From Candidatus Latescibacterota bacterium (lineage in GTDB: Bacteria; Latescibacterota; UBA2968): a stretch of DNA of 64,000 nt. Where the stretch lies: the NCBI GenBank assembly GCA_022821275.1, contig JAJEDY010000095.1, positions 66,700 to 130,699 of the forward strand, in the 5' to 3' direction. This document shows positions 16,422 through 60,605 of this stretch, in pieces (the stretch's first letter is position 1; every line of letters begins with the position of its first letter). The position numbers were made by a program, and so were the translations under genes. The notes below the pieces were generated by a model. That model worked only from the letters and a program-made list of their open reading frames with translations, was not told the origin of the DNA and did not search any database.

Positions 16422-16507
16422 GTTGACTTCTTCATTAAGATAACCATTACTACATAGTGCTATACGTAGCGGCTTGGTATAAAAAAGTGGCCTGATGTTA
16501 CTCCCCT

Positions 16508-16539
16508 GTCATTGCGGCATGGTTTTAGCCGCAATCCAG
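16508..16539 (+). repeat. 32-bp dispersed hairpin repeat, copy 2
   Basis: It matches 31 of 32 bases with 3677-3708 and has the same TTGCGGC/GCCGCAA stem. It lies in the 194-base gap between a small gene and the end of the giant helicase operon. Confidence 0.8.
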
Positions 16540-16615
16540 CTTGTTTTTTTATCAGCAAACTCAGGAGCGGCTACTTAAATCCGTAATCCACAGGCGAACT
16601 CCCAGATGTATAGGT

Positions 16616-19600
16616 TCATCTTCTCCTTTTAATTCGTTCCTGTGCCTTTCGCAATAAATCTCTTGAATCAATTCCAGAGTCTGTTTTGGGTGTCTCTATT
16701 CTTGTATTTTCTGAGGAGTGGTTCTCTTGTTTGCTGGTCTTATCCAGTTGCGATAATGGAGATCTCTGTAATAAAAGAGCCAGAACCCGATGTGCTTGTT
16801 TGCGTTTCAACAACCCCCTGCTTAAGGCTATTTGTGCATCAATACCCAAAAGACAATCCAGGCAGGCGGTCTCACAACGGTCATGATGGTCCGAGTTGAC
16901 ATAAAGAACGCGCAACGCTTCTTCAAGCCATAAACGGCCTAAGCCCAACAGTTCTCGAACATGACCTGCACCTCCTGCGACATTGTCATAAAGCACAATA
17001 CCCCACCCAGAACCATCCTTGCCTGCCGGTACAGTCATTACACCGATTTCACGCATATCCAGTTCAAGTATCTGAACACCTGCTCTTTGCAATGCATATC
17101 CCAAAGTGGTAATCAGAGCACGGTCTCGCGCCTGACCATCCAGACATTTCATAAAGTCAACCATCAAAACATCCGTAATCTCACGTGCTGCTAACATTTG
17201 TCCACGAAGTATAGGATGTTCTCCTTCAGACCAACAACGCATCCAAGAATTTGAAGAATGTAAAGGCGCGTGGTTGTCAAAATCAGGAGGAAGGTTCATG
17301 ATACCCTCGCCATAATCCATCTCACTTTCGGCAAAACCACACTTGAGGCAAATGGCAAATCCTTTATTTTCTTCTCCCTTGTTATAAACCAGTATTTCTC
17401 CATCTTCCTGATAGTGACAATCCAATCCTTGTATATCTCCTAAATTTTTGATGGATGTAATTTCCTCATCTCGGTTCTGCAAAAATGTTATGGTAGCTGT
17501 CTCCACAGAGCCAATACGTTCTTCATCGGTGCTAAACTTTGGTGGATCCCAAGCTGCACTGCTAAAACCGTGTTTAGGAAAAAGCATCGGCATGGGAGAG
17601 ATGGCTGGTCTTGCACCACATATAGGACAAACATGTTCCATCTTGGATATCCAATAATAGAAATGACCTTGGACACATTCACACCACTGACCTCGCAAGC
17701 CAAAAGAGATATCTCCATCCGTCCAATGTTTCAACAAACCACGCGACGAAATCTGCTTGCCACCCACCAATAATTGAGAACCAGGGACATATTCACGCAA
17801 AGCCAACAAACTACTGCGCTCCAAACGATATTGATCTTCTTCGCGTACCTTATTCCGGTATTCTTGATCCGGGACAATAACCCGCAACTTTTGCACACCA
17901 ATGGGAAAACCATAATGAGGTAAAAATTGGCGGTCAGCTAAACTCTCAATAACCGTAATCGCATGCAGTGCACTCAGTTGATAACGGATTGCGTTGGCTT
18001 GGGCTTGCTGTTCTTCTTCAGTAGCACGCCAGCTTGATAGTAAATTCTCATATTCTTCGCGCCAACTGTGAATGGACTCACGAAAGTGATTGATGGAATG
18101 TTGTAAAAAGCTATGCCAATCCTCTATTTCTTTTAATAAACGGGTTTGGTTCAACAAGATCCCAATCGTATTGCCAAGTACTTCTTGTCCCCCATCTCGT
18201 ATCCATTTCAGATAGCTTAAAAACTGTGCTTCCAAACCAGACACCGTCAAATCGGGATTCCACCATGGGAAATCAAGTTGATATTCCGACGCGATAGGTG
18301 TTCGAATGCTCGGCTTCGGATCTCCCTTTTTCCAATATGCCACCTTTGGTACACCGCAAAAGGTACCCATGTTGCCAAATGCGTTCATAGCTCCCACATG
18401 CTGATCTTCAGGATAAATGGCTCGAAAAAATTCTCCAATCAGGAAGGAGTGAAAATGGCGCTTCACGACTCGATTGCGATCAAGAAAAACCAGAGGTTTG
18501 CGTAAAGGCCGATCAAGATAGTCACCAACACGATTAAACACTTCTCGATCATAGGGTTGCGACCGGGCATAAGTTATCACAGCAGAAGATCCATCAGATC
18601 GACGGCCTGCCCGACCTGCACGCTGTAAATAGTTGGCCTTTCCCGGTGGTACATTGCTCATCAGGACCGCGTTTAACCCTCCTATGTCAATGCCCAATTC
18701 CAGAGTCGTTGTCGCACTCAGAATATTACGAATACCATATTTGAAGAGGTCTTGCAATCGCCTATTTTCATGAGGTGATAACTGTGCACTGTGTTCTTCT
18801 GCCCATAATCCCATCTGAAAAACTTTTGAATCACGATACTCACGCCGCTGCCGCCCGACCCGAGCATCTTTGTCCAGTTCGTCATCGAAGATGGATCTTA
18901 AAGTGCGACTGCAGCCAATTTCGGGCGCACAGCCCAAGATGCTGCGATACCAGAGATGTCCAGTCTTTTCACATCGGTAAATATTGATGGGACGCCGCAA
19001 ACCCAGATGGTCAAAGACCAACTGAATGGCATCTTGTGTTGGTCCAGTTCCAGACTGTCTTATATGACACTGAAGCCAAGACAATTGTCTATCCAAAGGT
19101 TTTTGTCCCACAGGATGCGCGGCTGTCATCAATTGCTCAAATGCTGTCTCAAGCATCTGTGTAGCCAAGTATTCAATGTCATCTGAAACGCCACAGGCTC
19201 TCAATACTTGATCTGCAAACCACAACCTACGTTGTCGCAAAGATTGTCCCACAAAGCTAATTAACCGGTTGCCAGATGCTTTTTCTGAACACCAATAGCC
19301 TATATAAGGCACATTAAATGGGCTGTCTCTCAAAGCATCTGAATCTTCAAGTGCAATAACTCCATCAGACCTAAGCGTATCACACAATGCTTTAAGAAAA
19401 TCCACCCATATCTGACTCAACTGGGTTCGAGCCTTTTCATGGGGCAAAGTACCAAGTAAAGTATTGGGCACTTGTAATTCATCAATCCCGGGATAGGTCA
19501 CTTCAACCAGACCGAGGTTTTCCAACGAATTGTGACCGCGATAAGTCCGGGCAAATTCTTGTGCCAAATATAGTCTGGCATGACGCTTCACTTGTTCATA

Positions 19601-21967
19601 ATTCTTTTCCCATTCTCGTTGTCCCCATCTTTCTCCGTCTTTTTTAGGTAGGTGACGAAAAGCTGTCTCGCGGTCCAGTAATTCTGATAGAAGAGGCTGG
19701 CGAGCCAGTTTTTCACACCAGTTATCAATAGAACCACCTGCGGCTGCGTTTTGTACCTGCAATCTTAAATATTGTAGAATATTTAAGATTACTTGCCTTG
19801 ACCCAGGATCAAGGTCAGGTTCTGCAAGCCGCATTTCATTGTTCTGGATCATTTCTTTAATGTTAGCAACTGTTTTTTCTCCACCCAAAGGTTCTTCGAC
19901 AATCTGTTTTAATATTGCGGCGCGGATAACTTGAAATTCGTGTTGTCCTGTCAAGCGAGGGCCTAAACGCGCTGCTTCCTGCCGACTGTCGCTGAAAACC
20001 AGCAAACGTCGGCCCCGTGCAGGCAGAAAATCATTCAACAGCGTTGGAAAATGCGGCATCTCTGACAATACTGTCTCTGTTAGAATAGATAAAAGAAGCG
20101 GTGACCAGCGACCAAAAGAAGTAAAAGCCTGTTGGCTTTCACCACAGCGAGCACACTCTGAAACCTCATATAGAGACACAGCCTTGTCAGATGTTTCCTT
20201 TAGCTCGGCTGTCATAGGGTCAATGACATATTTTCTGCCATTTGAAGTCGCCTTAAAAGAAAAAAACAAGGGATCTCTTGTCTCATCTGAAATAATGGGT
20301 TTGAGATACTGCCGGTCTCGCTTTCCTGCCAATAACCATTCCCCACAATTCCTACATCGAAATAGGGATAGTACTGCACCTCCACAAGCAGAACAGGCTT
20401 CATGAAATCCTGAAAGAACACGCCCTAAAGATTTTAGCTTTAAATGTTGTTTACCAGAACAATTCGAATTAACACAAATGGATAACCCATCGTTAGATCG
20501 TGCCACCAAATGGATTCGGTGGGGTATTAAAGGATATTGATGAGGCAACTCCCTTGCTGTTGCTGCAAGTTGGAGCAACACAATTGTCGCTTTTATCTCA
20601 TCTTTTGTCTGCCCGCCCCAAAGTGTCTCAGTCAGTTCTACCAATGGCAAATGTCTTTTTTTCCATAATTCTTTTTCCAACTCATGAATCAAAGGTGAGG
20701 CTCCTAATGTCTCCTTGAGCAGACGGGCTGGCACATCTCGTTCTTTTACACTATCCACCAAAGCTGAATTGACCAAAACCGGTAGTTGTTGTCGCAACTG
20801 CTGACACATATCTGGCTCTTTAGCCAGTATAGGCTGCATATCTTCATCATAGGTTATCAAAGGTCGGTCCAGCCAATCCTGTTTAATTAAATCCTCTGGC
20901 GTGCTATTTCGCTCTGGCGGTGCAGGAATGTCCAGTTGAACACGGGCCGAGCGTCCTTCTATAACTCGAACCTGATCAATTGATTTTGAAAAAATCGTCG
21001 CCGCAAACCTCTTAAGATCATCCGAGTTTCCCGACCCAAGTGTTGCAGAGGTCGCCATTTGTATAATATCTGAAGAAGAAACTCCGCAACGAATAGCAAG
21101 GCGTCGCAATAAGAGCGCGATTTCAGCAGCCAATGTCCCCGTGTATAAATGTGCTTCATCCAGAACCACCGCACGAAGTCCTGATCCAAAAAATACAGAA
21201 TCCTGTGGCCTACAAAGCATGTATTCCAACATAGAATAGTTTGTCACAAGAATATCTGGAACTTGATCGAGATTTGGAGGATTCTCCTTTCTACCAGTTT
21301 TTGGATTTTCCAGCCCTCTGGCTTCTTGTCTGGTGCGGACGCGGCAGGCGTCCCAATAGGGTATTCCGTCGCGATCAGCGAATTTTTTATTTTCTGGCGT
21401 TTCACTGGTGAAGTGGAAAAGTCGGATATGTGTTTGACCTTCAAGCCAACTGTAGAGTCGATCGACCTGATCATTGACTAACGCATTCATAGGGTACAAG
21501 ATGATGCACTTCACACCTTCTTGTTTAGTCGAAGAAGTATAGAGCGCATTTAGAATAGGCAACAGAAACGCCTCTGTTTTACCTGTACCGGTGCCCGCAG
21601 TTACAACAACTGCTTGTTTTTCTGCTTGTTTTTTTAGATCCTCAGCGCAACACAGGGCCTCATATTGATGGGTATAGAGAGGCCGTTCAGAAGGAACAGC
21701 CCCAGTTTTATCCAATTGATCGCGAAGCTGGGTATTAAATTTTCCCGCATCAACCAACTTAGCAAGTGTCCAATCAGACTGCTCTGCTGGGAAATTGCCC
21801 TCAACCCACAGATCGCTCAATAACCCACCATTTTGTGGTGTTGAAGACCATAACTCGCGACAAATATCTGCTAACTTCGGATCATTTACAAAGTTGTCGT
21901 CCACACAAAAATCGGTTAATCGTTTACGGATTTTTTCTGATAATTGCAGTGCGTCAAGTTGTGCCAT
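16616..21967 (-). CDS. Giant DEAD/DEAH-box helicase with DUF1998-type C-terminus (DruE-like)
   Basis: A 1783-aa superfamily 2 helicase. Walker A is GTGTGKT at 125-131 and DEAH at 270-273. The second RecA domain (roughly 1080-1150) has TTTLELGIDIGG and the motif VI stretch QRAGRAGRRSDG. Cys clusters around 495-550 and in VCPICGARP suggest zinc ribbons. The C-terminal ~150 residues (GGAGHVRELLGLG, CLDCLLG) match the DUF1998 region found in DruE and DrmB defence proteins. It starts 9 bases after the stop of the 1488-aa gene, with GGAGTAATTT. Layout fits Druantia type III; the assignment is by architecture, not by a search. Confidence 0.8.
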   Translation of the reverse strand: MAQLDALQLSEKIRKRLTDFCVDDNFVNDPKLADICRELWSSTPQNGGLLSDLWVEGNFPAEQSDWTLAKLVDAGKFNTQLRDQLDKTGAVPSERPLYTHQYEALCCAEDLKKQAEKQAVVVTAGTGTGKTEAFLLPILNALYTSSTKQEGVKCIILYPMNALVNDQVDRLYSWLEGQTHIRLFHFTSETPENKKFADRDGIPYWDACRVRTRQEARGLENPKTGRKENPPNLDQVPDILVTNYSMLEYMLCRPQDSVFFGSGLRAVVLDEAHLYTGTLAAEIALLLRRLAIRCGVSSSDIIQMATSATLGSGNSDDLKRFAATIFSKSIDQVRVIEGRSARVQLDIPAPPERNSTPEDLIKQDWLDRPLITYDEDMQPILAKEPDMCQQLRQQLPVLVNSALVDSVKERDVPARLLKETLGASPLIHELEKELWKKRHLPLVELTETLWGGQTKDEIKATIVLLQLAATARELPHQYPLIPHRIHLVARSNDGLSICVNSNCSGKQHLKLKSLGRVLSGFHEACSACGGAVLSLFRCRNCGEWLLAGKRDRQYLKPIISDETRDPLFFSFKATSNGRKYVIDPMTAELKETSDKAVSLYEVSECARCGESQQAFTSFGRWSPLLLSILTETVLSEMPHFPTLLNDFLPARGRRLLVFSDSRQEAARLGPRLTGQHEFQVIRAAILKQIVEEPLGGEKTVANIKEMIQNNEMRLAEPDLDPGSRQVILNILQYLRLQVQNAAAGGSIDNWCEKLARQPLLSELLDRETAFRHLPKKDGERWGQREWEKNYEQVKRHARLYLAQEFARTYRGHNSLENLGLVEVTYPGIDELQVPNTLLGTLPHEKARTQLSQIWVDFLKALCDTLRSDGVIALEDSDALRDSPFNVPYIGYWCSEKASGNRLISFVGQSLRQRRLWFADQVLRACGVSDDIEYLATQMLETAFEQLMTAAHPVGQKPLDRQLSWLQCHIRQSGTGPTQDAIQLVFDHLGLRRPINIYRCEKTGHLWYRSILGCAPEIGCSRTLRSIFDDELDKDARVGRQRREYRDSKVFQMGLWAEEHSAQLSPHENRRLQDLFKYGIRNILSATTTLELGIDIGGLNAVLMSNVPPGKANYLQRAGRAGRRSDGSSAVITYARSQPYDREVFNRVGDYLDRPLRKPLVFLDRNRVVKRHFHSFLIGEFFRAIYPEDQHVGAMNAFGNMGTFCGVPKVAYWKKGDPKPSIRTPIASEYQLDFPWWNPDLTVSGLEAQFLSYLKWIRDGGQEVLGNTIGILLNQTRLLKEIEDWHSFLQHSINHFRESIHSWREEYENLLSSWRATEEEQQAQANAIRYQLSALHAITVIESLADRQFLPHYGFPIGVQKLRVIVPDQEYRNKVREEDQYRLERSSLLALREYVPGSQLLVGGKQISSRGLLKHWTDGDISFGLRGQWCECVQGHFYYWISKMEHVCPICGARPAISPMPMLFPKHGFSSAAWDPPKFSTDEERIGSVETATITFLQNRDEEITSIKNLGDIQGLDCHYQEDGEILVYNKGEENKGFAICLKCGFAESEMDYGEGIMNLPPDFDNHAPLHSSNSWMRCWSEGEHPILRGQMLAAREITDVLMVDFMKCLDGQARDRALITTLGYALQRAGVQILELDMREIGVMTVPAGKDGSGWGIVLYDNVAGGAGHVRELLGLGRLWLEEALRVLYVNSDHHDRCETACLDCLLGIDAQIALSRGLLKRKQAHRVLALLLQRSPLSQLDKTSKQENHSSENTRIETPKTDSGIDSRDLLRKAQERIKRRR

Positions 21968-21976
21968 AAATTACTC

Positions 21977-24900
21977 CTATAGATTGCGGATTATATCATT
22001 AAAGATATTGATGCAAAGGTAACGATTAAAGGGTTGCACATTCATTGATATTTCAAGGTTTTCTCGATTAATTGCTGAGAGATGTCGGTTGCGTCCAGAT
22101 TTTGCCATTTCCACGCCTTGTTGAGCGACATGTTTTAAAAAAGAAGGAGCGAGTATCATGCTTTGAGCGGCTTCATCAAGACGATTTTCCTCCTCAATTC
22201 TGGTGTCTTGCTCCGAGGCTCGTGATGGCAAATACAGAAAGCGTCGCTTAGCACTTTGAAGATGATCATTCCACTCAGACTCCTTGAAATTTCTGTAACG
22301 CGAATCCAGCAATGCCTGCACCACGCGTCCCATAAAAATGGGATTTATATGCCCTAAGCAATGGAGTGCTTTCCCAAAGTTGTTCAAAAATTGATCTTGT
22401 ATCATCAAATCAACAATGGCTGATGCGTGTTCAGGTTCAACAGGAATCTCAACAAATAATTCTCCAATATTGGCAAACCACGTTTCATAGGTTTCGTTAA
22501 AGCATAGGTACCTTGGAAGCCCTTGATCTTGCACCCAGGCAGATAGTACAGCGACCAAGTTTGTTTCGATGAAACGGATAACTTTTTCTCTCCATGTCGG
22601 CTTGAGAATAGGGAGATGTAACCATCGCATCATCGCTGCCACATTTTGAATACTTTTAGCATCCAAAGAATCCAAAATCTCTATGTGATCTTCCCACCAA
22701 CTTCCCACACATTCTCCACGATACGCAATGCCACAGGCAACCAAAGGGCTATCGATTTCCGCGAGCCATTGCCTACCTTCATGCATCTCAATTTCGAATT
22801 GAGACACACGTCCATTGGGTGATACACCGATCAAGAAATGATCAGATCCCGGCTCTACATCTCTGTGCAAGAATATATCAATGAGGGTTTCATCCATCAG
22901 CACTTGGTCTATAATCCCACGGTCAACTACTTCCGTGGATAGCGTCAACAGTTTTTCTTCTGATAAGCAGTTATAGGGTTTTTGGACTTTCAAAGGTGCT
23001 CCCAATCCCACCAATCCTCCGAGTGTTCTAGGACGCTTCCACAGCCTGCGTAGAAACACACTCCCTTCCATCAAAGCGAGATCTTGGAAACGCTCCCCTC
23101 GCCAATGATTTGGAACGAAAACTTGTACACGATTAGATTCCAGTTCTCTAACAGTTACCTCTCGCCCAATAAACATCGGCTTCCACCGGGTCTTTCGTTC
23201 AATGACTGATCCCATAAAGTCTAAATCAACTGGCAATCGAAGACGTTTTTTATCGCCATTGCAGTCCAAACGAAATTCAATTTTGCTCCCTCGCCAGATA
23301 GCGAGTGCGACCTCTGGTGTCAATTCAATATTTTTAATTCGTCTCTCTTCCGGCAGAGGTGTGACTGCGACGGGTTTTTTACAGAAAATAGCGTGAGAAA
23401 TTTTGACTTCAGGAGGAATATTTTTGATAGCCAAATCAAATTTGTCCCCAAACTCCAAGGTGGCGTTTGATACTACCTTGATCTGAATTTTTTGCTCCCA
23501 ATCAGAGAGATGGGATATAGATTTATCTGATTGTTCAGATTTTAAAAGAGGAGACCAAAAATCATCTTCTTCCATAGTAATTTTTAAGTCAGGTGACCAT
23601 CCTTTTTGCAGTAAAATCAATCGCCATTTTCCTTCTCCAACAAGCCTCCACGGCTCAATAGATGGTTCAACCCCAAGATCTGTCAAGGTAATCAGCACAT
23701 ATTGTGACTGAGTATCCATCTGTCTTTCCCAAGCATTGATTTTGCGCCCTGAAGGAAATAGAAAGACACTGACCATCAAATCATCATCTTCATTCCAGAG
23801 TTGGAGTTCCTGAGTATAACACGTTTTGCCTTCCGAATCACATAGACGAATGATTTGCTGAGGACTATCAAGATGGATACGGATTTCCTCTATACACCCA
23901 TAGCTGCCATTGGCATCTCTAAGAAGCGAGCCCATATACCGTTCGCCTACAAAAAGATCGTAGCGATCATCATTAAGATCCATCCGATCAAGTTGTTGTA
24001 GAGGACATTCAAAAAATGGCTTGTCAACACCGTCCCATCGAAGGTTGGGGCTATGGACCAACATTACGTGCTGTCCATCATCTTCACCAGATACCTGAAT
24101 ATTCGGTGTGGAAAGCTGGTCTTCAAGTTCTTCAACCGACTTTGTAGCATCTAGCACATCTTGTGTTTTTTCAGGTAGTACCCAGGGATTAGCATCGAGA
24201 ATTTTGGTAGCTATATCCAGCGATATGCGGTTAAACCGAAAATCTCTCAACGTATGGAACAAATGAAAGAAACTCTCGCTTTTTAAGTGCGTGCTCAACA
24301 ATAAATCGAATGCGCGAAGATTTTTATGCCCCGTCAGCGTCAAAGGGAGTTGTTTAAGATGAGATAAAGCAAAGCCATATTGTAATGTCATGGTTATGTA
24401 ATAACTTTGCGTGCCTTCCTGCCCCAAAACATGCCGCAGATTAAATTTTCGACAGGTAGATTCTATTACATCTTTAAATCTTTGATTGATACCTTGATTT
24501 CCTTGAAAAACAATCTTTCTGGCATCATCATTTAATCGCTTGCGTAAAAACGGCCAAAGCATGCTTGATATAGATTCTCTGCGACCAACCTCTGTAGCCA
24601 ATAGTAGTAGTAAAAGGCCAGCTCCCAAAGCAACTGGAGTGGCTTTCCCCGCCCCCCATTCAAGATATTGTTCATAATCATCCAACAATGCACGCAGAGT
24701 AGATGCATCAATATGCTTTGCCCACAAAATCAGCCATTGATATCCTTCTTGATTGATACGCAATTCGCACAAAGAACGAGGCGTTGGCAGATCTTCAACT
24801 GCTTTAATGATTCGCAGAATAGCTTTACAAACAGCATCGGAATTTATTGGATCTAATCCGATAAAAAGATTTTTGTAATGATCTTTCTCATTTTCAATTT

Positions 24901-26443
24901 CCTCTAAAATTGTGTCATAATCTAAGTCGCTTGTAACACATAATGGAAATGTTGTGATTTCTGTTGGCTGGGGGTCAGATAAGGATGGTAAAATTTCCTC
25001 TTCTGCATATTCAGACAGCGCATAAATAGCTCGATCTACTTTTTTAATTTCATCAGCGCGTTCTAAGTTTTGAAGCACGGAATTGACTCGACTTGCTGAA
25101 AATCCTTTGGGAAAGTCCGGAAATAACTCTTGGGACTTTGCGGCGATGTCTTTGAAGTGAGCGGGCCGTTTCAGTATATTTAGCGTTCGAATTATGCAAG
25201 GTCTCAACCGTTTGATGGATCGGTGACTTTCTTCTGCACATCGAAATAGAATTCTATCTTCTGTTTTGCTAAGTCCTCCAGTACATCTTCTTGCAACAGA
25301 TAAGTAATCTTCCTCATTGATGTCATATTCCTTCTCCCAACGTTCCAAACCGGGAAGTTTTCCAAAGTCCTTCCCCCAGTTTATCCACAACCAGTCGCTA
25401 TTATAGACTTGGATTGGTTCGACCATTGCAATTGTTTTTAAAATTTGGTATAAACCTCGGTTTGTAATCCGTCTTCCAAAATAATTTTCCATCTTATTTG
25501 CAATCCTATCAGGAAACACAAGACGCATAGAGGACAATTCAAAAAGATTTTGTCCCAAAACATAACCGAAGATTATCCGAAATGCAGGATGCTGGAGCCG
25601 ATCAATCACCTTTTTTGTTCTCTGGCGTGCTCCTTCTCTTGAAACCCCTAACGCCTCACCCAATTCTTCCAGCGTATGTCCATCAAGTAACCTTTTCTCG
25701 ATCAAAGTTCTTTCATCGTCATCAAACTGAGACAACCAGTAACCGCCGTAACCGAGATCCAGATGAACAGGTTTTAAAATTCGATATTGAGCACGCGCTT
25801 GAAACCCATCCCATGAAAGCACCACTTCAGCTTGTAATCCCCAATATTGACAAAATGCAAGGAATGTACGCATATCGGCAGCAGATATGTCCTCATCACC
25901 TAATTTTTCAATCACCCCCACCTGTTCTAAAAGAGTCCATAGCTCGTCTGGTTTCAATTGATAGGGGCTGGCTATCAACCGGCAGATTCTCTCGCCAAGT
26001 ATATCAGTGACGGATTCTTCAGGTTCTGCATGCGAGCACCATGTCAGCAGATATCTACAGGCCGATTCAATTAGCGTTTTTCGTGGTATAAATCCTTTCG
26101 TGGAAAATTTTTCTTTAGGCTCAAGTGTGACATAAGCGGGATGATGAAGCAAAACTTTTTCTAATTTTGATGGCGAGATAACATATTCATCGCTTATAGG
26201 ATCAATCCGATCACAGATTTGTGCTGCTGTAAGTGCCGGTGTAGCAATCTTTGCGGTCCAGCCCAGTAACTTTTCAAGATGTTTTGAGTCTATGGGCTGT
26301 GGACTTTCAAAGCTATTATCCACATCTTCCGTTGTTGTTTTAATGGTTGCGTACGGATATTTGGACATATCCCACCGGAGTTGATAATCTATCATATCAT
26401 TCTTGATAGCAAACAAAGACCTTGGTTTGAGTTTACGCATCAT
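21977..26443 (-). CDS. 1488-aa HTH-containing protein, partner of the giant helicase (DruH-like candidate)
   Basis: I do not recognise this protein as a whole. Residues ~242-284 hold a sigma-70 region-4-like HTH (HTLEELGEALGVSREGARQ), and ~415-479 resemble a HARE-HTH winged helix (ILKRPAHFKDIAAKSQ ... RAIYALSEY). The middle is helical and the last 600 residues are beta-rich with no catalytic motif I can see. The start was chosen at tandem ATGs behind AAGGAAGTG; a TTG 30 nt upstream is less likely. It precedes the DEAH helicase by 9 bases. In a Druantia III reading it would occupy the place of DruH. Confidence 0.75.
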   Translation of the reverse strand: MMRKLKPRSLFAIKNDMIDYQLRWDMSKYPYATIKTTTEDVDNSFESPQPIDSKHLEKLLGWTAKIATPALTAAQICDRIDPISDEYVISPSKLEKVLLHHPAYVTLEPKEKFSTKGFIPRKTLIESACRYLLTWCSHAEPEESVTDILGERICRLIASPYQLKPDELWTLLEQVGVIEKLGDEDISAADMRTFLAFCQYWGLQAEVVLSWDGFQARAQYRILKPVHLDLGYGGYWLSQFDDDERTLIEKRLLDGHTLEELGEALGVSREGARQRTKKVIDRLQHPAFRIIFGYVLGQNLFELSSMRLVFPDRIANKMENYFGRRITNRGLYQILKTIAMVEPIQVYNSDWLWINWGKDFGKLPGLERWEKEYDINEEDYLSVARRCTGGLSKTEDRILFRCAEESHRSIKRLRPCIIRTLNILKRPAHFKDIAAKSQELFPDFPKGFSASRVNSVLQNLERADEIKKVDRAIYALSEYAEEEILPSLSDPQPTEITTFPLCVTSDLDYDTILEEIENEKDHYKNLFIGLDPINSDAVCKAILRIIKAVEDLPTPRSLCELRINQEGYQWLILWAKHIDASTLRALLDDYEQYLEWGAGKATPVALGAGLLLLLLATEVGRRESISSMLWPFLRKRLNDDARKIVFQGNQGINQRFKDVIESTCRKFNLRHVLGQEGTQSYYITMTLQYGFALSHLKQLPLTLTGHKNLRAFDLLLSTHLKSESFFHLFHTLRDFRFNRISLDIATKILDANPWVLPEKTQDVLDATKSVEELEDQLSTPNIQVSGEDDGQHVMLVHSPNLRWDGVDKPFFECPLQQLDRMDLNDDRYDLFVGERYMGSLLRDANGSYGCIEEIRIHLDSPQQIIRLCDSEGKTCYTQELQLWNEDDDLMVSVFLFPSGRKINAWERQMDTQSQYVLITLTDLGVEPSIEPWRLVGEGKWRLILLQKGWSPDLKITMEEDDFWSPLLKSEQSDKSISHLSDWEQKIQIKVVSNATLEFGDKFDLAIKNIPPEVKISHAIFCKKPVAVTPLPEERRIKNIELTPEVALAIWRGSKIEFRLDCNGDKKRLRLPVDLDFMGSVIERKTRWKPMFIGREVTVRELESNRVQVFVPNHWRGERFQDLALMEGSVFLRRLWKRPRTLGGLVGLGAPLKVQKPYNCLSEEKLLTLSTEVVDRGIIDQVLMDETLIDIFLHRDVEPGSDHFLIGVSPNGRVSQFEIEMHEGRQWLAEIDSPLVACGIAYRGECVGSWWEDHIEILDSLDAKSIQNVAAMMRWLHLPILKPTWREKVIRFIETNLVAVLSAWVQDQGLPRYLCFNETYETWFANIGELFVEIPVEPEHASAIVDLMIQDQFLNNFGKALHCLGHINPIFMGRVVQALLDSRYRNFKESEWNDHLQSAKRRFLYLPSRASEQDTRIEEENRLDEAAQSMILAPSFLKHVAQQGVEMAKSGRNRHLSAINRENLEISMNVQPFNRYLCINIFNDIIRNL

Positions 26444-26469
26444 CACTTCCTTCTTGCTTGGCAAGTATT

Positions 26470-26637
26470 TCAATTGAGTTTAGAGGTGAGTTTCTCTGCC
26501 AATTCATCCAGTATCTCTGAACAAGTTAATCCTTCAATTTTCCCCTGTCGTGCCAGTTCAAGACAGCGATACGGGTTGCCTTCTCAGCCGATACCGGACA
26601 ACAGAATGTTTGTATCATAAACGGCTATGGGTTGCAT
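26470..26637 (-). pseudogene. Truncated PIN-domain toxin (COG1569-like) with in-frame stop
   Basis: The minus strand reads MQPIAVYDTNILLSGIG, then TGA, then EGNPYRCLELARQGKIEG and SEILDELAEKL. That is the N-terminal third of a PIN-domain ribonuclease (first Asp in YDTN, later LARxGKI...SEEIL). The TGA replaces a likely Trp, and the reading ends after 55 codons where about 140 are expected. Its start overlaps the stop of the 93-aa upstream gene, the usual antitoxin-toxin junction. The giant operon begins immediately after it. Confidence 0.75.
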
Positions 26638-26906
26638 TCGCGGTCCTCATGGATGAGGTCATTGACAAAATTCTCGCGTTTCGCTTCGGTCATCGTATCC
26701 CAATTCAATCCCCGAGACGCACATAATTTTCGAAACTGCGCTTCAGCATAGTCCATGCGTGCCGTGCGATTGACTTCTGCCTGCTCTGCAAGTGCGAGTA
26801 ATACTTCTCGCTTCTCTTCCGGTGGCATTTGCTGGACCAAACCAATGACCTGATCGGTTGTTAATTCAACGGTCAAGATCATGTCAATCACTTTCTTGCA
26901 ATCCAT
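26625..26906 (-). CDS. Probable antitoxin of the broken PIN toxin
   Basis: A 93-aa charged, helical protein (LVQQMPPEEKREVLLALAEQAE). It overlaps the start of the truncated PIN gene, as antitoxins do. The first ATG lacks a clear ribosome site; the Met at codon 9 is an alternative start. With its toxin broken, it is an orphan here. A family name cannot be given with confidence. Confidence 0.6.
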   Translation of the reverse strand: MDCKKVIDMILTVELTTDQVIGLVQQMPPEEKREVLLALAEQAEVNRTARMDYAEAQFRKLCASRGLNWDTMTEAKRENFVNDLIHEDRECNP

Positions 26907-27145: not shown

Positions 27146-28690
27146 TCATGCGCGGGCTGTCTCGAACCCCACCAGGTTGCGGGTTTCTCGGCTGAACTCT
27201 ACGGCGATGAGATGTATCGGCTCGCCGCGGTCACGGTACTTGTCGGCGTAGCGTTTCTGTTTCAGTTGCGCCATCGCTGCGCCTTCAGGGGCTAATTCGA
27301 CCACTTTGAACTCGAACAGATACACATTGCCGTTGAAGCGAACCGCCATGTCCAGACGGCCATGGCTGCTGCTGTCTTCCACAACGATGTCCAATCCCAC
27401 CGATGCGAAGTAGGAGTAGAACACGCTGGCGTAATAGCCTTCGTAATTCGCTATGTCGTTTTTCGTATGCCACTGGTAGGGAATGCTGGCGAAAAATGCT
27501 TTGAACAGGTTTTCCAGGCCAGCGAAGTCATTGACCAGCAACAGGTCATAGAGCCGGGCAATGTGCTCTGCCTGCTGCGTCGGGTTCCCGGTCAAGTGGT
27601 TCAGCAAACTTTCGTTCAGGCTCTGGCGCACTTCCTGATTTGGATAGCCCAGACGGTAGTAGATCCTGCTACCGCGCGGCTCGGTATGTCGAATGGTTAG
27701 ATAGCCGGTCTGGAACAGCAGGGCTTCGGTCGCGATGTGGTCAACATCAAATGTAGATAACAGTTCGTCATTGCCCAACAGGTTGTCCAGGGTCAGCGTC
27801 TCAACTCTACGCGAGATCAAGGTCTCGATCAGGAATGTTGGGGTACCGGTCTCGAACCACCACGCGCCAAAGCGTTGGCTGTCGAAGAGCAGGAGGATGT
27901 CGAACGGGTTATAGACCTCCTCCCCCAGCCAGCTATAGCCGTTGTACCAACGGCGTATTTCGTCGCGGTCAAAGCCGGGCAGTTCTGGTGCAAACACTGT
28001 GTCCAGGTCTGCATCGGTGTAGCCGCAGATGGCTGAGTAACGCACATCCAGCGTGATGTCCTTGAGATTGTTGAGGCCCGAAAAGAGGCTGACTTTGGAG
28101 AATTTGCTGACGCCAGTGAGGAAAGTGAACTTGATATAGGCGTCGCTGTCCTTGATGGTCGCGTACAGACCGCGCAAAAAGTCGCGGTTGGCGCGTGCGA
28201 CTTCTGGTATTTCGAGTGCGTCCAGAATCGGCTTGTCGTATTCATCTACCAGAACGGCCACCGGTTGCCCGGCACGGTCATGCAGTGCCTCTATCAAATA
28301 GGCGAAACGACCCGGTACTGTCTCGGCCTCAACAACCACTCCGGTTCGGCGTTCGATGGCGGCCAATTGATCCAGGAGATTCGCTTGCAGGTCGCCCGAC
28401 TCTTTGAAGTTGCCGCTACCAAAACTCAAGCGAATCACCGGATAGCGAACAGACCAGTCCCAGTGGTCGTGGATATAAAGCCCATTGAACAGCGGTTCGT
28501 TGCCTTCGAACAGTTCCTTCAACGTGTCCAGAAACAGACTCTTCCCAAAGCGGCGTGGGCGCGACAAGAAGTAATGCTTGCCCTCGTCTCTTAGTCGCTG
28601 AATGTAAGCGGTCTTATCGACATAATAGTAGTTTTCTTCTCGTATCTCACGAAAGGTCTGAATACCGATGGGTAGTCTGCGTCTGGTCAT
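27146..28690 (-). CDS. AAA-family ATPase with C-terminal PD-(D/E)XK (DUF1703-type) nuclease domain
   Basis: A 514-aa protein that begins RRRLPIGIQTFREIREENYYYVDKTAYI, the signature of the AAA-ATPase_like family, with the Walker-A-like loop SRPRRFGKSL near residue 45 and AVLVDEYDKPI as the Walker B region. The C-terminal part (GRLDMAVRFNGNVYLFEFKV) fits the PD-(D/E)XK core of DUF1703 (D...ExK). Such proteins are widespread in gut and environmental bacteria and suspected to be defence or mobile genes. AAGGAG precedes the ATG. Confidence 0.88.
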   Translation of the reverse strand: MTRRRLPIGIQTFREIREENYYYVDKTAYIQRLRDEGKHYFLSRPRRFGKSLFLDTLKELFEGNEPLFNGLYIHDHWDWSVRYPVIRLSFGSGNFKESGDLQANLLDQLAAIERRTGVVVEAETVPGRFAYLIEALHDRAGQPVAVLVDEYDKPILDALEIPEVARANRDFLRGLYATIKDSDAYIKFTFLTGVSKFSKVSLFSGLNNLKDITLDVRYSAICGYTDADLDTVFAPELPGFDRDEIRRWYNGYSWLGEEVYNPFDILLLFDSQRFGAWWFETGTPTFLIETLISRRVETLTLDNLLGNDELLSTFDVDHIATEALLFQTGYLTIRHTEPRGSRIYYRLGYPNQEVRQSLNESLLNHLTGNPTQQAEHIARLYDLLLVNDFAGLENLFKAFFASIPYQWHTKNDIANYEGYYASVFYSYFASVGLDIVVEDSSSHGRLDMAVRFNGNVYLFEFKVVELAPEGAAMAQLKQKRYADKYRDRGEPIHLIAVEFSRETRNLVGFETARA

Positions 28691-36579: not shown

Positions 36580-37554
36580 TCAAGATTGGTCAACTAACGA
36601 CCAAGCGGGTAGGTATTCTTGAATCTCTTGGAAAATCTTACGGATGTCAGTAGGCAGATTTTTTTGTTTAAATAGATTAGATTGCTCTAATAGCCAGCAT
36701 ATTCTGTATCGGTCACAAAGAATGCAATCAATAATGCGGTCTGGAGATACATTCCATTTCTGGGCAGTTGTCCGGGGAAAGTGAGGTATCATCAAAAAAT
36801 TGGAACTATTCACTTGGATATCAACAAATGCCAACAAAGAAGAATTCGGCATTGCTTCATGTTTTTTGCGCCACCAATATTTCGCCACCGTGCATTGTGC
36901 GAAGGCAAAAAAGGGATACTCTAAATTGTCATTAAAAGGACAAATGGCGACAATGTCGATGCCGTATTCTCTTTGTGAATCTGGGATTTCGTTTTCTCGC
37001 TTCAACATAGCATTTAATTTTTTTGCCAAAACAGGAACAGCCTGACTTGCAGAGTTCCCGAAAATTTCCCTACGATCTTTGCTGTGCTTACTGAATAGCA
37101 ATACCTCCGCCCAATCCGGAAACAACGCTTGCATCGCCTGTTTGCAGATAATTTCAAAATTGACTGGTAAAGAATTTTTTAAATCGAAAAACGAATCATG
37201 GAACGAGCAAGCCAATAAAAAAAGATATGACAAGTGATTTTTTGTCCCAGCCTTAATCGAAAGACGAACTTCACGTCCGTCGCATTCGAATGGATATAAA
37301 CCCTCCAGCCAAAGTACACGTGACTTAATAAGGTCTATTGCGTTATCAAAATTTGGCTCATATTCGTCTATCCACTCATCCCCTTCAAGATGCGAATCAT
37401 CACCCGAAGAAATCTCATCTTTAATAATATCGACAAAATCGGCATAATTAAAGCAACCATCAGATTCATCGGAAAACGCGACATAACACTCTATATGATC
37501 AGCTAACCCGACCGCATCCTCAATGGTTATTTTATTCCAAGCCGAATCAATCAT
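36580..37554 (-). CDS. Candidate PD-(D/E)XK-type nuclease of a methyltransferase-ParB operon
   Basis: A 324-aa protein with no named family that I can assign securely. YGIDIVAICPF then FFAFAQCTVAKYW fits a PD-(D/E)XK core (Asp in GIDIVA, Gln in place of Glu, then a downstream Lys), similar to restriction-endonuclease-like proteins with GVDIVAWRPF...QC. Its start overlaps the ParB-like gene by 4 nt (ATGA). It is the last gene of the operon and is proposed as the effector. Confidence 0.6.
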   Translation of the reverse strand: MIDSAWNKITIEDAVGLADHIECYVAFSDESDGCFNYADFVDIIKDEISSGDDSHLEGDEWIDEYEPNFDNAIDLIKSRVLWLEGLYPFECDGREVRLSIKAGTKNHLSYLFLLACSFHDSFFDLKNSLPVNFEIICKQAMQALFPDWAEVLLFSKHSKDRREIFGNSASQAVPVLAKKLNAMLKRENEIPDSQREYGIDIVAICPFNDNLEYPFFAFAQCTVAKYWWRKKHEAMPNSSLLAFVDIQVNSSNFLMIPHFPRTTAQKWNVSPDRIIDCILCDRYRICWLLEQSNLFKQKNLPTDIRKIFQEIQEYLPAWSLVDQS

Positions 37555-38645
37555 CGCTCTACCGTAATCTTTAAGCGGTCTATTGCAACATCAAGTACTT
37601 TCATTGCCTCGCGGACCTTTCCCACAGCTTCTTGGTCATCGAATGACACAGAGTGCAGATTCGAGTTTACCCGTTTAAGGTGGTCTGTAGCTCTGGTTAT
37701 ATCTTCTAAAAACTCCTCTCTATTGTCCACCGTATTACTATAAGCACTATCCAATGGCACACCTTGTCGGAATGCTTTCAGTGTGTCAGGGTTTTCTATT
37801 ATCGCACTTAATTTGCCGATGTTTCGAGATTCACCAAGACGAGTGGAACCCTTCTCATCTTTTTTAAACAACCACTCCGTAAGTTCTTTAAGAGGTGCTT
37901 CTTTCAATGCTTCTGGTTTGTTAATGGGGTATGTTGGTTTACCGTCTTCTTCTCTGACGCCAACAAATGACGCAATTTCCAAGTCTCCGATTGCCGTATA
38001 GAACACGCCGAACTGAAAACTGCCCTCATCCAAATCCTCAATGTCAAAAAAGTCACGTTCTTCAATGGCTTCGTACGCCGCTAAAGCATCCAGATTTCGT
38101 CGAACTGCATCGCGCTTGCTTCCGATTTCACGGGCAACCTCAATACAGCGTTGTTCAGGTTCACCTGATAATTGTTCAAACAACAATTTTAAGTATCGTG
38201 CCTTAGCCAAGGGCTCCCATCGCTGCACCCCAGAAATATGGCGAAAGCCCAGATATTGTAAGGCATCATCCCTTGATTCAACTATATGTACTGGGATTTC
38301 TGTTGGTCTGTGTTTAGCCTCTTCTGCCGCTCTTGTGATACTACGGATGTTGCCTGCTTCTCCCGGATCTTGCAACAGCCGTAATGCTGCCAGTCTGCGA
38401 TTACCCTCCAGAACTGTGTATTTGTCGTCTTTATAAGGAGTTACGACGATGGCTTCACCAGGGAAGAAACCATTCACTCCAATTGAGGTCATCAAATCAG
38501 TAATACCGGTTTTGCTCGCCAAATATTTGATAATTTCGCTATCTTTTGGAGCTACCGTTTTAGGCAACCGAGGATTTTCTTTATCAAATTCGAGATCGTC
38601 AATTTTGAGCTCTTTAAAGTTCTTGAGCACTTCAAAGTCGTTCAT
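37551..38645 (-). CDS. ParB/Srx-fold protein of a defence operon
   Basis: A 364-aa protein with a ParB N-terminal-like domain: GVNGFFPGEAIVVTPYKDDKYTVLEGNRRLAAL is the recognised core (GNRRL in place of GERR). The middle contains a helical DNA-binding-like region (CIEVAREIGSKRDAVRRNLDA). ParB-like proteins are common partners in R-M and defence loci, where they can bind DNA or hydrolyse CTP. It overlaps its neighbours by 4 nt on each side, so the three genes are one transcript. Confidence 0.8.
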   Translation of the reverse strand: MNDFEVLKNFKELKIDDLEFDKENPRLPKTVAPKDSEIIKYLASKTGITDLMTSIGVNGFFPGEAIVVTPYKDDKYTVLEGNRRLAALRLLQDPGEAGNIRSITRAAEEAKHRPTEIPVHIVESRDDALQYLGFRHISGVQRWEPLAKARYLKLLFEQLSGEPEQRCIEVAREIGSKRDAVRRNLDALAAYEAIEERDFFDIEDLDEGSFQFGVFYTAIGDLEIASFVGVREEDGKPTYPINKPEALKEAPLKELTEWLFKKDEKGSTRLGESRNIGKLSAIIENPDTLKAFRQGVPLDSAYSNTVDNREEFLEDITRATDHLKRVNSNLHSVSFDDQEAVGKVREAMKVLDVAIDRLKITVER

Positions 38646-39703
38646 GAGAATACCTCTTCCGGTAGTGCTTCGAAAATTTGCCGGAAAATCATTGGCGGTA
38701 CTGCATTGCCAATGACCTTATATTTGCTCAGCAATCCCGCTGTGTCTGGAAATTCCCAGCCGCCGAGGTCTTGAAGGGCTGCTGCTTCCTTATAGGAAAG
38801 CCGGCGAGCTTTATTGGGATCTCCTTCGAAAACCCACTGATCTGTGCCTATTTTTTTTAATGGCGGACTCATTGGATGCAACGGCATATGGCGTGCGTTT
38901 GCGAGTACTGTTTTGCTTGGTTCATCCCATCCGCGGTAGCGGTCACGAGAGAGATAATACCAATGAAAATCCTGATCACAAAACTCGCCTTGAGGCCATT
39001 CTTCTTGCAAGTCTTTTAAAACTTCTCGCTGTGTTTTAATCGGTTTCAGTCCCGGTCCATGTGTGGGTTTGGGAAATTGATATTTAACTCCGAAATCGGA
39101 GCGGATGCCGACGATAAAAATCCGCCGTCGCTCTTGGGCCAAACCGTACTCAGCGGCGTTGATGATGTCCCAGGTGACGCGGTATCCAGCTAAACGGAAA
39201 CGGACGAGTTGCGCATTTAAAAAATGTCGATTGTCGCTTCGCGCCATGCCAGACACGTTTTCTACAATAAAGACCTTAGGGCGGATCTTCCGCAGAGCGC
39301 GATCAAATTCGCGATACAGTACATTGATTTTGCGACCAGTATCGCGCGCTCCACCTTGACAGTAGCCTTGACAGGGATAGCATCCGGCCAGAACGTCCGA
39401 TGATGGAAAGGATCTGATTTGGTCAATGCTATCGGTTTTGAAATCGGTTTCGGGCAGATTGGCTTCATAGACATCCTTAGCATAGGCTAGAATGTCATTT
39501 GCCATTAGAATTTCGCAACCAGCGTCGATCAGTCCCCGATCGGAGCCTCCGCATCCTGTAAAAAGAGAAACCGTTTTCAATGGTTGTTTTAAAATGGATT
39601 TATTCAGCATCGCCTCATTCGCGTCGGTCAAACAAGTGTCTTCATCAATCTGGAACTCAGTCGCATTCTGAATGCTCTGAAATTCTACTTTGGTAAATTT
39701 CAT
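38642..39703 (-). CDS. DNA cytosine-5 methyltransferase
   Basis: A 353-aa C5 methyltransferase with the standard order of motifs: I (SLFTGCGGSDRGL), IV with catalytic Cys (GCYPCQGYC), VI (FIVENVSG), VIII (QERRRIFIVGIR), and IX/X (KARRLSYKEAAALQ, YKVIGNAVPP). It should modify a cytosine in a specific DNA site; the target cannot be read. The first gene of a three-gene operon with ParB-like and nuclease-like genes, so it probably protects self DNA. Confidence 0.93.
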   Translation of the reverse strand: MKFTKVEFQSIQNATEFQIDEDTCLTDANEAMLNKSILKQPLKTVSLFTGCGGSDRGLIDAGCEILMANDILAYAKDVYEANLPETDFKTDSIDQIRSFPSSDVLAGCYPCQGYCQGGARDTGRKINVLYREFDRALRKIRPKVFIVENVSGMARSDNRHFLNAQLVRFRLAGYRVTWDIINAAEYGLAQERRRIFIVGIRSDFGVKYQFPKPTHGPGLKPIKTQREVLKDLQEEWPQGEFCDQDFHWYYLSRDRYRGWDEPSKTVLANARHMPLHPMSPPLKKIGTDQWVFEGDPNKARRLSYKEAAALQDLGGWEFPDTAGLLSKYKVIGNAVPPMIFRQIFEALPEEVFS

Positions 39704-41356: not shown

Positions 41357-43048
41357 CTACAACCCCCGCAAAGCCGATAGTGCTTCGGCGACTTCTCTCC
41401 CTTTTTGTTCTATGATGTTGAGCAGGTCTTCGGGAGTTCGGGTGTCTTCTTCGATGATGCTGTTGGGATTGACGGCTTTGAGGTCATAGACCGCGTCATC
41501 AATTGCCTGTGCTCGGTTCTTCAATTCTCGCGTATCTCGCCGCAGTTCTCCTTCCTGTATTTCCAGCACTTTGTAGTCACCCATTCCCTTTTTCATGGCC
41601 ATCAACTGAACTTTGATTGCATCGGCCTGTCGGCTTTTGGAATCGGCTTGTTTATAGAGAGGCGCAGATTCTTTGAGAGCGTCTTTTTTGCGTTGGGGGA
41701 GATCTACTGTCCAGCTTTTTTCGCTTTCCTCGCGTTTGGGCATCCGTTTGAAAAAGTCTTCGAAGTGTTTCGACGTCAGGGGATTGCGTTTTGTTACTTT
41801 TATGTCTGACAGGTCGTAATACCAGATTTCTGTTGTGGGTTCACCTTTTAAAAAGAAGAGCAGATTGGTTTTCACGCCAGCTCCTGCCGATGTGAAGACA
41901 CCGCTGGGCAGGCTCACAACGCACCACAGGTTGCACTCTTCGACGAGTTTGCGTTTGGTCTGGACAAAGGCGATTTCGTTTGTTCGAAATAAAATGCCTT
42001 CGTCCATCACAATGCCGCAGCGTCCGCCTTGCGTGAGGCTATCTATGATGTGTTGTAAAAAGAGAACCTGCGTGGCTCCTGTTTTGTAAGCAAATTGCGT
42101 TTGAGCGTCTTTGCCTTCTTTGCCGCCAAAGGGCGGATTCATCAGCACCACGTCAAATAGCGGTGGTGCATTGAGAAAAAGCCCGCCATAGACTTCATTG
42201 CCCGTGAGCGTGTTGCCATGCCAGATGTGGGGCTGGTCAATGTCGTGAAGTACCAGATTGGCAAGGGCGATGGGATAGATCAAATTTTCTTTTTCGCGTC
42301 CGTAGAACGTTTGTGTTTTGAGGATGTCGAGTTGATCGGGGGTGGCGTCGCCGCCGAGGTTGTGATGCATGTGTTCGTAAGCCTGAGCTAGAAAACCGCC
42401 AGTGCCACACGCAGGATCGTACACAGTTTCACCGATTTTGGGATCGACTGTGCGAATCAAAGCGCGGACGACTTCTCGAGGCGTGAAGAATTGACCGCCA
42501 TCATTGCCTTTTTCGCCCATGCGGAGTAAGAGACCTTCATAGACTTGCGATAAGGGAAAGACATGGGTTGGGTCAATGGTTTCGTCTTTGATTTCGTGGA
42601 CGCGGTCCAACACATCGAGCATGTTCCGCTCGGTGTCAATGCGGACCCGTTCGACACCAGACATGACTTCGCTGATGATCTTTTGCCGTGCAGTGGCGTT
42701 GGGTTTGTCCCGCAGTTCTTTCAGGTGGGACAGGAGGTCTTCGTTCACGAAGGTAAAGAATGCACCCAGTGTGCCTTCTTGAAGTTCTGTGCGTTTTGCG
42801 CCATCTGGTGCAGCCCAATCGCGCCAGCGATACGGTGCTTCTAATGATGGGATATAGTGTTGCCCGACGGCTTTTGACATCATTTCTTCTTGTTCTTCGC
42901 GCTCGTCCAGGATGCGGAGGAATAAGATCCATGTCAGTTCTGGTACATACTGCATTGCGCCCGCGCAGTTGGATCGCCGCATGATGTCGCAGATGCTTTT
43001 AATCGCGCTATCGACGGATTGCGCGGTGGATAGTCCTGCTTTTGTCAT
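41357..43048 (-). CDS. hsdM: Type I restriction-modification system, HsdM methyltransferase
   Basis: A 563-aa N6-adenine methyltransferase of a type I R-M system. The HsdM N-terminal helical region ends VPELTWILFLRILDERE; motif I is YDPACGTGGFLAQ and motif IV is MNPPFGG. It acts with HsdS to methylate, and with HsdR to restrict. The hsdS gene lies 18 bases upstream; hsdR is separated by several genes. Length is normal for the family. Confidence 0.93.
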   Translation of the reverse strand: MTKAGLSTAQSVDSAIKSICDIMRRSNCAGAMQYVPELTWILFLRILDEREEQEEMMSKAVGQHYIPSLEAPYRWRDWAAPDGAKRTELQEGTLGAFFTFVNEDLLSHLKELRDKPNATARQKIISEVMSGVERVRIDTERNMLDVLDRVHEIKDETIDPTHVFPLSQVYEGLLLRMGEKGNDGGQFFTPREVVRALIRTVDPKIGETVYDPACGTGGFLAQAYEHMHHNLGGDATPDQLDILKTQTFYGREKENLIYPIALANLVLHDIDQPHIWHGNTLTGNEVYGGLFLNAPPLFDVVLMNPPFGGKEGKDAQTQFAYKTGATQVLFLQHIIDSLTQGGRCGIVMDEGILFRTNEIAFVQTKRKLVEECNLWCVVSLPSGVFTSAGAGVKTNLLFFLKGEPTTEIWYYDLSDIKVTKRNPLTSKHFEDFFKRMPKREESEKSWTVDLPQRKKDALKESAPLYKQADSKSRQADAIKVQLMAMKKGMGDYKVLEIQEGELRRDTRELKNRAQAIDDAVYDLKAVNPNSIIEEDTRTPEDLLNIIEQKGREVAEALSALRGL

Positions 43049-43066
43049 AAATACCTCATTGAGATG

Positions 43067-44212
43067 TCAAAGTTCGCCGTTGAAGGCTTTGCGAAGTATC
43101 GCGGAGGGTAGTTGGTTAATTGTCTCTAAATTTTCCTTAATCGCAACACAAGCGCGTGAGATGTTGGCCATACGATCTTTTAGGGTAGCGGCGATGCGTT
43201 TTTGTTCGGAGAGGGGAGGAAATGGAACCACAAGGTCTTCAAGAAAGTATGAGGGGACCCTTTGTTGACCCACGGACCCTGTGAAGTGGGAGGTTGCTTC
43301 ATTGAGAATCGACGGTTGGCGGATGTAGAGATGTATCCATTCAGGTATGACTTTATCTCCTGGTCTGATGACATGAAATTCGGTCGTGCCAAAACCGATA
43401 CCGTCAATCAAATTTCTTGCTATAACGTGTTTCCCATTCTGCATGCAGGGTGTAATTTTGGCAAATAGAACATCATTTTCTTCAAAGTAGGTGTATCCCT
43501 TCTTAACCTCTCCAAAAGGCTTTTCTAATGGATCTGAGATGTTCCCCGAAGTTCCATCGACAGAGGGCATTGGGACAAAGGTTGTCGTTGCTTCTTCTGT
43601 CCGCTTAAGACCTCTGGGACGACGAGGGTTGATCTCTGCAATTTCCTTCAATTGAGGCCAACGCCATTCCTTTGCCTCGTTACTCTTGAAAGTTTCCCGC
43701 AAATACGCAGCCGATAAGGCCTCAGCAGCCTCTAATTGCGCTTCAGCAGCAACACGGGCGCGGGCAATGTCTGCCATGTGGTCATTTAGAATGGTGGCGA
43801 TGCGTTTTTGTTCAGAGAGCGGAGGGAGTGAAATTGAAAGATTATAAACATCATTTCTGTTTAGCCCAGGTACAGCAGCAGCCTTATTCAAATTTGGGAG
43901 ATTTAGGCTTTTGAGATAAAAAGACAACCACATAAGGTCGCATTTTGTTACAGAAGAATCTATGTAATACGTAGTATCAATCGGCCAGCATTTGTCCTTT
44001 ACCAAATGTATTTCCCCTATTGATCCTTTTCTGCCTATGACAATAGCTGGCCCAGAAATCAAGTGTGCATTATGGGTCCCAACAGGCCCGTTTGATCCAT
44101 ATACAGGTACGTTGCCAGGTACTCTGGACCGTGCGGGTAAAGATTTGCCGTAAAGCAATTCACAAATCTCACCCAATTTTGTTTCTTTCCAATCTGTCAC
44201 CGAACTTTTCAC
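43067..44212 (-). CDS. hsdS: Type I restriction-modification system, HsdS specificity subunit
   Basis: A 381-aa protein with two target-recognition domains, each followed by the conserved coiled-coil start LSEQKRIA (LPPLSEQKRIATILNDHMADIARARV and FPPLSEQKRIAATLKDRMANISRACV). The two repeats fit a bipartite DNA target; the target sequence cannot be read. It lies immediately upstream of hsdM in the same operon and downstream of an HNH-like gene. Confidence 0.92.
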   Translation of the reverse strand: MKSSVTDWKETKLGEICELLYGKSLPARSRVPGNVPVYGSNGPVGTHNAHLISGPAIVIGRKGSIGEIHLVKDKCWPIDTTYYIDSSVTKCDLMWLSFYLKSLNLPNLNKAAAVPGLNRNDVYNLSISLPPLSEQKRIATILNDHMADIARARVAAEAQLEAAEALSAAYLRETFKSNEAKEWRWPQLKEIAEINPRRPRGLKRTEEATTTFVPMPSVDGTSGNISDPLEKPFGEVKKGYTYFEENDVLFAKITPCMQNGKHVIARNLIDGIGFGTTEFHVIRPGDKVIPEWIHLYIRQPSILNEATSHFTGSVGQQRVPSYFLEDLVVPFPPLSEQKRIAATLKDRMANISRACVAIKENLETINQLPSAILRKAFNGEL

Positions 44213-44266
44213 GCTACAAATATCCTTTCTTTTGGAGATTATATACGGTAGTGCCCAAAACAGAGA

Positions 44267-45526: not shown

Positions 45527-45603
45527 ATTCTTTCCTTTTATCAACTTTGTTGGTTCTATATCTACCGATAGTGAACATCGTTCAAAGCACAAGGACTCAT
45601 TGA

Positions 45604-45843
45604 TTAGATCCTATTCTGTTCATTCGGCGGATCTACGTCCCCTACCTTTGCCATTGCTGCCAGAAATTTCTCTTTGCTCCCGCGGTTTGCACGCGCTTCA
45701 AGATGTGCTTCGGTCGCCATTGCTGATGCTTTTTCGGCCATTGCGAGCAGAATAAATTGTTCGAATGATATACCTTCGTGCTCGACAATATCCCGGACGG
45801 TTGCGTGAAGCGAATCGGATATGGTTATACTGATGGTTGTCAT
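45604..45843 (-). CDS. Small RHH-type antitoxin-like protein (79 aa)
   Basis: It begins MTTISITISDSLHATVRDIVEHEGISFEQFILLAMAEKASA, the pattern of a ribbon-helix-helix protein: a short beta strand then two helices. Such proteins are antitoxins or autoregulators. A toxin partner is not adjacent. The first base after its stop is 77 bases from the HNH-like gene, on the same strand. Confidence 0.7.
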   Translation of the reverse strand: MTTISITISDSLHATVRDIVEHEGISFEQFILLAMAEKASAMATEAHLEARANRGSKEKFLAAMAKVGDVDPPNEQNRI

Positions 45844-45929
45844 GGTCGTTAATCTATCTATTCAAGAAACTTCTATCTGGGGCTTTGCCTGTTCATTCGT
45901 TTCGCGATTAATAAGCAACAGAAGCCGTT

Positions 45930-45974
45930 ATAAAAAATAATGCCGAAAGCCTGTGTTTCAAGAGGCTCTCGGCA
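45930..45974 (-). terminator. Terminator of the DUF2442 gene
   Basis: A stem TGCCGAAAGCCT / AGGCTCTCGGCA with one internal mismatch lies downstream of the DUF2442 stop, and the minus strand continues TTATTTTTTATAA. Confidence 0.75.
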
Positions 45975-46013
45975 CTTGTACTCAGAAAGTAAGCTACAAA
46001 TCTCAATGCCTTG

Positions 46014-46337: not shown

Positions 46338-46348
46338 ATCCTTTCCTT

Positions 46349-46376
46349 ACGATAGACAATTTCGGATTTATGTCAA
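46349..46376 (-). promoter_or_regulatory. Putative promoter of DUF2442
   Basis: Minus strand TTGACA, 16-nt spacer, TATCGT (4 of 6 consensus), just upstream of AAGGAAAGG and the ATG at 46337. Confidence 0.45.
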
Positions 46377-46405
46377 CCAAAAGAAGTATCAAAGCCCAAT
46401 TTTCA

Positions 46406-46426
46406 AAGCACTTTTCGGAAGTGCTT
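46406..46426. other. Perfect inverted repeat AAGCACTT/AAGTGCTT
   Basis: An 8-bp stem with a 5-nt loop between the divergent DUF2442 and Panacea genes. There is no U-run next to it, so operator or attenuator is more likely than terminator. Confidence 0.4.
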
Positions 46427-47487: not shown

Positions 47488-47490
47488 AAT

Positions 47491-60573: not shown

Positions 60574-60605
60574 ATCAGCACTATCTTGTCCATATTCTCG
60601 CTGAA

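Follow-up and report, generated by a model that had tools for sequence, protein, structure and literature searches.

A candidate Druantia III-like operon pairing a nuclease-less DruE helicase with a very divergent, putatively DruH-like partner at a defence hotspot

A two-gene operon in a 64,000-nucleotide stretch of a Candidatus Latescibacterota genome (hereafter the window) probably represents a self-contained, horizontally swapped Druantia III-kind system of antiphage type, in which a DruE helicase is combined with a partner whose core (~950 residues) would be a very divergent relative of DruH. The evidence comes from the operon and its site, from the helicase and its phylogeny, and from a partner family that accompanies this DruE clade across genomes.

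Operon Structure and Genomic Context

Both genes lie on the minus strand and have intact reading frames, with a 1488-aa partner (21977–26443) transcribed first and a 1783-aa helicase (16616–21967) second, separated by 9 bases. These open reading frames bear out the pair as described in an earlier sequence-only reading of this DNA, including its sizes and gap. The two may be translationally coupled, given that the Shine-Dalgarno sequence of the helicase gene (TAGGAG) overlaps the stop codon of the partner (21967–21988, minus strand). Within the phylum, two of 64 genomes carry the pair; the second, G041 (locus L051), shares 79% and 71% identity with the window genes. Relative to the G041 orthologs, dN/dS is 0.19 and 0.26 for the two genes, which indicates purifying selection.

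The operon stands out from its surroundings both in composition (G+C of 0.41–0.45 in the operon interval vs. 0.50–0.57 in the flanks) and in distribution. When the site was compared by BLAST in sister genomes (G029, G030, G032–G035, and G037), homology stopped near positions 16505 and 26472; the window therefore has a ~9.97-kb insert (16506–26471) that holds just these two genes and that is absent or replaced in the sister genomes. Specifically, the same flanks lie 74 bp apart in G037 and enclose short remnants in G032, G033, and G035, while G029 carries a TmtA-like gene at this site (L137:1167–5597) and G034 carries TmtA together with a DrmD-like helicase. TmtA and DrmD-like genes at the same site in a sister genome span L138:2148–9091. 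The operon site is a defence hotspot with swapped cassettes.

The neighbours noted in the sequence-only reading, a broken toxin module and an ATPase/nuclease gene, are indeed present. The PIN toxin gene (26472–26906) has a premature internal stop, is cut short at the cassette boundary, and adjoins a 93-aa antitoxin; its copy in G029 (L137) is intact. The second neighbour (27146–28690) encodes an AAA-ATPase_like and PDDEXK_9 protein and is multi-copy in the window genome and its genus. Neither is part of the system, because sister genomes without the operon have these genes, or traces of them, at the corresponding position; the PDDEXK_9 gene was also discounted for being multi-copy and for lying there without the operon. 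Elsewhere in the window, PADLOC identifies type I restriction–modification genes (HsdM, HsdS, and HsdR-like; 41357–50087), HmaB and HmaC of the Hma defence system, which run off the window end (58288–64000), and a PD-Lambda-5_A-like protein adjoining a DNA cytosine methylase that best matches DruM2 models (37551–39703). The swap site, the type I restriction–modification genes, and the Hma genes together form a strong context for defence.

The Helicase and Its Phylogeny

By profile, the helicase is a DruE of type III: it scores 747.5 bits against the PADLOC DruE3 model (PDLC00037), and other DruE types match more weakly. The DEAH helicase with zinc clusters and a DUF1998-type tail that had been proposed was recovered in full, as this YprA-family SF2 protein (16616–21967, minus strand) has Walker A at residue 124, DEAH at 270, motif VI (QRAGRAGR) at 1115, six CxxC pairs (zinc clusters), and Pfam matches to DEAD, Helicase_C, and MZB/DUF1998 (the last at E = 5e-9). 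A phmmer search with the helicase also matches a 2108-aa DEAD/DEAH helicase in the PDB (9tu7_Y). In the DruE tree, the clade found with the window-type partner (support 0.989) is sister to the bona fide type III clade, i.e., the DruH-associated DruEs (support 1.0), and the union of both has a support of 1.0. The assignment to Druantia III thus stands for the helicase by profile and by tree, and the gene order, with the DruH position before DruE, holds as well.

What the window DruE does not have, as judged from tail length, is the C-terminal PLD nuclease region of ~400 residues that is a feature of type III-A. Only 78 aa follow its last Cys cluster, vs. ~405 aa in the pair of DruH-associated DruEs whose cluster was located; in type III, two PLD domains have been assigned to this region (PMC12458937 and PMC13192584). 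Bell et al. (PMC12458937) present a distinct III-like (III-B) branch whose DruE-type helicases mostly have no nuclease domain, as in the window, and the operon could belong to that published branch, in which case the novelty would lie solely in the annotation of the partner sequence. This reading is compatible with a divergent Druantia III-kind system, yet we regard it as rather doubtful. L122, the one full-length actinobacterial two-gene DruE placed in the tree, branches outside the sister pair formed by the window-type clade and the DruH-associated DruEs, and the main text of Bell et al. makes no mention of DruH or of this partner family.

A Partner Family That Travels With DruE

As a single query, the partner gave no match in a GTDB genome scan or in a tblastn search of plasmids, and its relatives were therefore reached via DruE. 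A search of GTDB genomes that used three aligned DruEs as the query yielded 80 loci, comprising the 47 closest DruEs and 33 more distant YprA loci. With membership defined as a match to one partner-core profile of 908 positions, the same partner family is found beside 41 of the 42 close DruE relatives that have readable upstream DNA (the exception is L043), and it is absent from all 33 of the more distant YprA loci (0/33). The partner-before-DruE order is kept in the relatives—though in L058 the partner gene is divergent, not co-directional—and carriers fall into at least 12 phyla by record title, with Roseomonas, Belnapia rosea, Geomonas limicola, and Desulforamulus putei as cultured examples. 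One further pair (G003, L019) was left out, having only weak partner similarity and a sequence that had entered the model iteration. Across 28 loci, the distance matrices of the partner and of DruE are strongly correlated (r = 0.86, vs. at most 0.41 in permutations), and the two proteins therefore travel together.

Most of this family is shorter than the window protein. The usual length of 850–1000 aa corresponds to window residues 540–1488, a conserved core (21980–24826, minus strand) for which AlphaFold2, Foldseek, and a 32-sequence alignment provide the evidence; longer partners carry N-terminal extensions. In the window, the extension is residues 1–539 (24827–26443, minus strand), a module that is restricted to a subset of the family; it has homologs in L018 and the Roseomonas/Belnapia group and is absent from most of the ~950-aa partners. 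It contains the only Pfam match of the full partner, to Sigma70_r4 (PF04545; residues 236–285, 25589–25738, minus strand), with a match (E = 5e-10) that lies above the curated cut-off, in agreement with the sigma-region-4-like helix-turn-helix (HTH) claimed from sequence. Extensions of this type are present in the window pair, Roseomonas, and Belnapia, and Sigma70_r4 matches 5 of 39 family members. The HARE-like winged helix claimed for the same protein was not recovered, with no Pfam match to it on the partner at E ≤ 1 and no match to HARE-HTH (PF05066) at E ≤ 10 in a six-frame search of the genome. A winged helix in the N-terminal module is nonetheless possible, if unproven, because the putative stretch is conserved across related N-terminal modules; AlphaFold2 models the module poorly (pLDDT 39). 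The longest extensions belong to partners of ~2300 aa (L030:1330–8223 and L049:1217–8275), with partners reaching 2352 aa, and the one such protein scanned, that of L030, has no Pfam match.

The presence of Sigma70_r4 in the partner, and the fact that YprA-family helicases act in repair too, would suit a DNA-repair or transcription module made of an MrfA/YprA-like repair helicase and a sigma-like regulator. We consider this very improbable: the DruE3 score is far above that of any housekeeping family, the spread is patchy (2/64 genomes of the phylum), the site is swapped with other defence genes, and most partners do not have the HTH extension. For the same reason, HTH content is secondary as an argument for the new subtype that the sequence-only reading had suspected, since most of the family does without the extension that carries the HTH; in substance, the suspicion stands, as there is a coherent partner family for which no PADLOC DruH model is among the matches listed.

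A further gene varies among the relatives. In nine of them (L030, L049, L032, L064, L036, L052, L055, L066, and L070), a ~560-aa NERD and UvrD-like helicase gene adjoins the pair and may precede, follow, or separate the two genes; no counterpart is present in the window. At L044:14985–18980, a 1331-aa protein with NERD and two protein-kinase stretches directly follows DruE.

Relationship of the Partner Core to DruH

Standard profile searches do not connect the partner to DruH. The window partner has no PADLOC match at E ≤ 5, for 39 partner-family proteins the listed matches cover 25 families without any DruH model, and phmmer with DruH references finds no significant match among the partners, while proteobacterial DruHs, used as positive controls, match strongly, with up to eleven PADLOC DruH models. 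Profile–profile comparison, on the other hand, yields a weak similarity to proteobacterial DruH above the nulls, and a clearer one to actinobacterial partners. Specifically, hhalign scores the core against DruH at 32.3, vs. a maximum of 23.1 for 40 shuffled nulls, with an hhalign probability of 2% that falls with a larger alignment. Partners from the actinobacterial two-gene DruE loci, which also have no PADLOC match, score 57.6 against the N-terminal domain of the core (shuffles, maximum 21.9; reversed profile, 23.6). The core and DruH align colinearly in their N-terminal domains, which also have an R-x8-W spacing in common (R82/W91 in the core and R79/W88 in E. coli DruH).

At the level of predicted structure, AlphaFold2 predicts for the core (pLDDT 85.3) an order of helical, tandem Ig-like, and helical domains, which agrees with the order published for DruH, namely helical ends and three Ig-like domains (PMC13192584). 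In Foldseek searches of the PDB and BFVD, the core model matches only generic Ig-like proteins, so the resemblance to baseplate J proteins that has been published for DruH was not recovered for this core; the solved DruH structure, 9TUD, was not among the matches listed from a library ending in April 2026. Profile similarity and predicted fold together suggest that the core may be a distant homolog of DruH, though this is not proven.

If it is not, the partner would be an unrelated sensor family joined to a DruE-type helicase, with a convergent likeness to DruH, and the operon would represent a separate YprA-helicase defence type. Such non-homology would be in keeping with the 39 family members without a DruH model among the matches listed, with the 2% hhalign probability, and with Ig-like arrays being common folds. 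It is unlikely, however, considering that no shuffled or reversed null reaches the profile scores, that the N-terminal match is colinear with the same motif spacing, and that the DruE clades are sisters.

Comparison With Known Systems

Taken as a Druantia III-kind operon, the window pair compares most directly with proteobacterial Druantia III (E. coli NZ_CP127005, L106), which has the same two genes, a large partner followed by a DEAH/DUF1998 DruE. The DruE clades are sisters (1.0) and the predicted order of the partner core is alike, but the window partner has no DruH model match and has an extra N-terminal HTH module, and the window DruE is without the C-terminal PLD region. The actinobacterial two-gene DruE loci (L122, L131, and L132), which are likened to the Druantia III of M. 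smegmatis by size and order only, resemble the window in having a DruE without a C-terminal nuclease, in placing the partner first, and in an N-terminal partner domain that is alike by profile. They differ in that the L122 DruE branches elsewhere and in that the partner is not alignable by ordinary sequence search. TALON and ARMADA also use a YprA-family helicase, and TALON has a NERD nuclease gene, as nine window relatives have a NERD/UvrD protein; unlike these systems, the window cassette lacks genes for a BrxHII-like helicase, a PglX-like methylase, TBP, and TPR-CSD.

Proposed Mechanism and Implications

In published Druantia III, DruH is likely the sensor and DruE loads on 3′ single-stranded DNA (PMC13192584), and in M. 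smegmatis both genes are needed (PMC13316683). Borrowing the sensor and effector steps from these studies, we propose that the Ig-like array of the partner would recognise a late phage product, and that activated DruE would load on intermediates of phage replication at their 3′ single-stranded tails and translocate, which would block phage replication or circularisation. Having no fused nuclease, DruE might remodel DNA or expose phage DNA to host nucleases, and in some relatives the NERD nuclease/UvrD helicase from the adjacent gene could supply the nuclease. The N-terminal HTH module would then be an optional add-on that might bind DNA for autoregulation or target reading, a step we infer from the domain alone.

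Beyond the single operon, the variation among relatives tentatively suggests a broadly distributed new Druantia-like type—a nuclease-less DruE clade with an Ig-like core, swappable N-terminal modules, and, in some lineages, a NERD/UvrD nuclease acting in trans—which could well exist, even if we lean slightly against it. If it does, defence finders that need a known DruH would miss the system. Tools with this requirement would call such loci a lone DruE or nothing at all, and the spread of Druantia III-like systems is therefore likely underestimated. The partner family offers a natural experiment on the role of DruH, in which a constant core is combined with variable N-terminal extensions, and the nuclease is absent or encoded by a separate gene; through such variation, the way in which a DruE with no fused nuclease halts phage DNA becomes directly testable.
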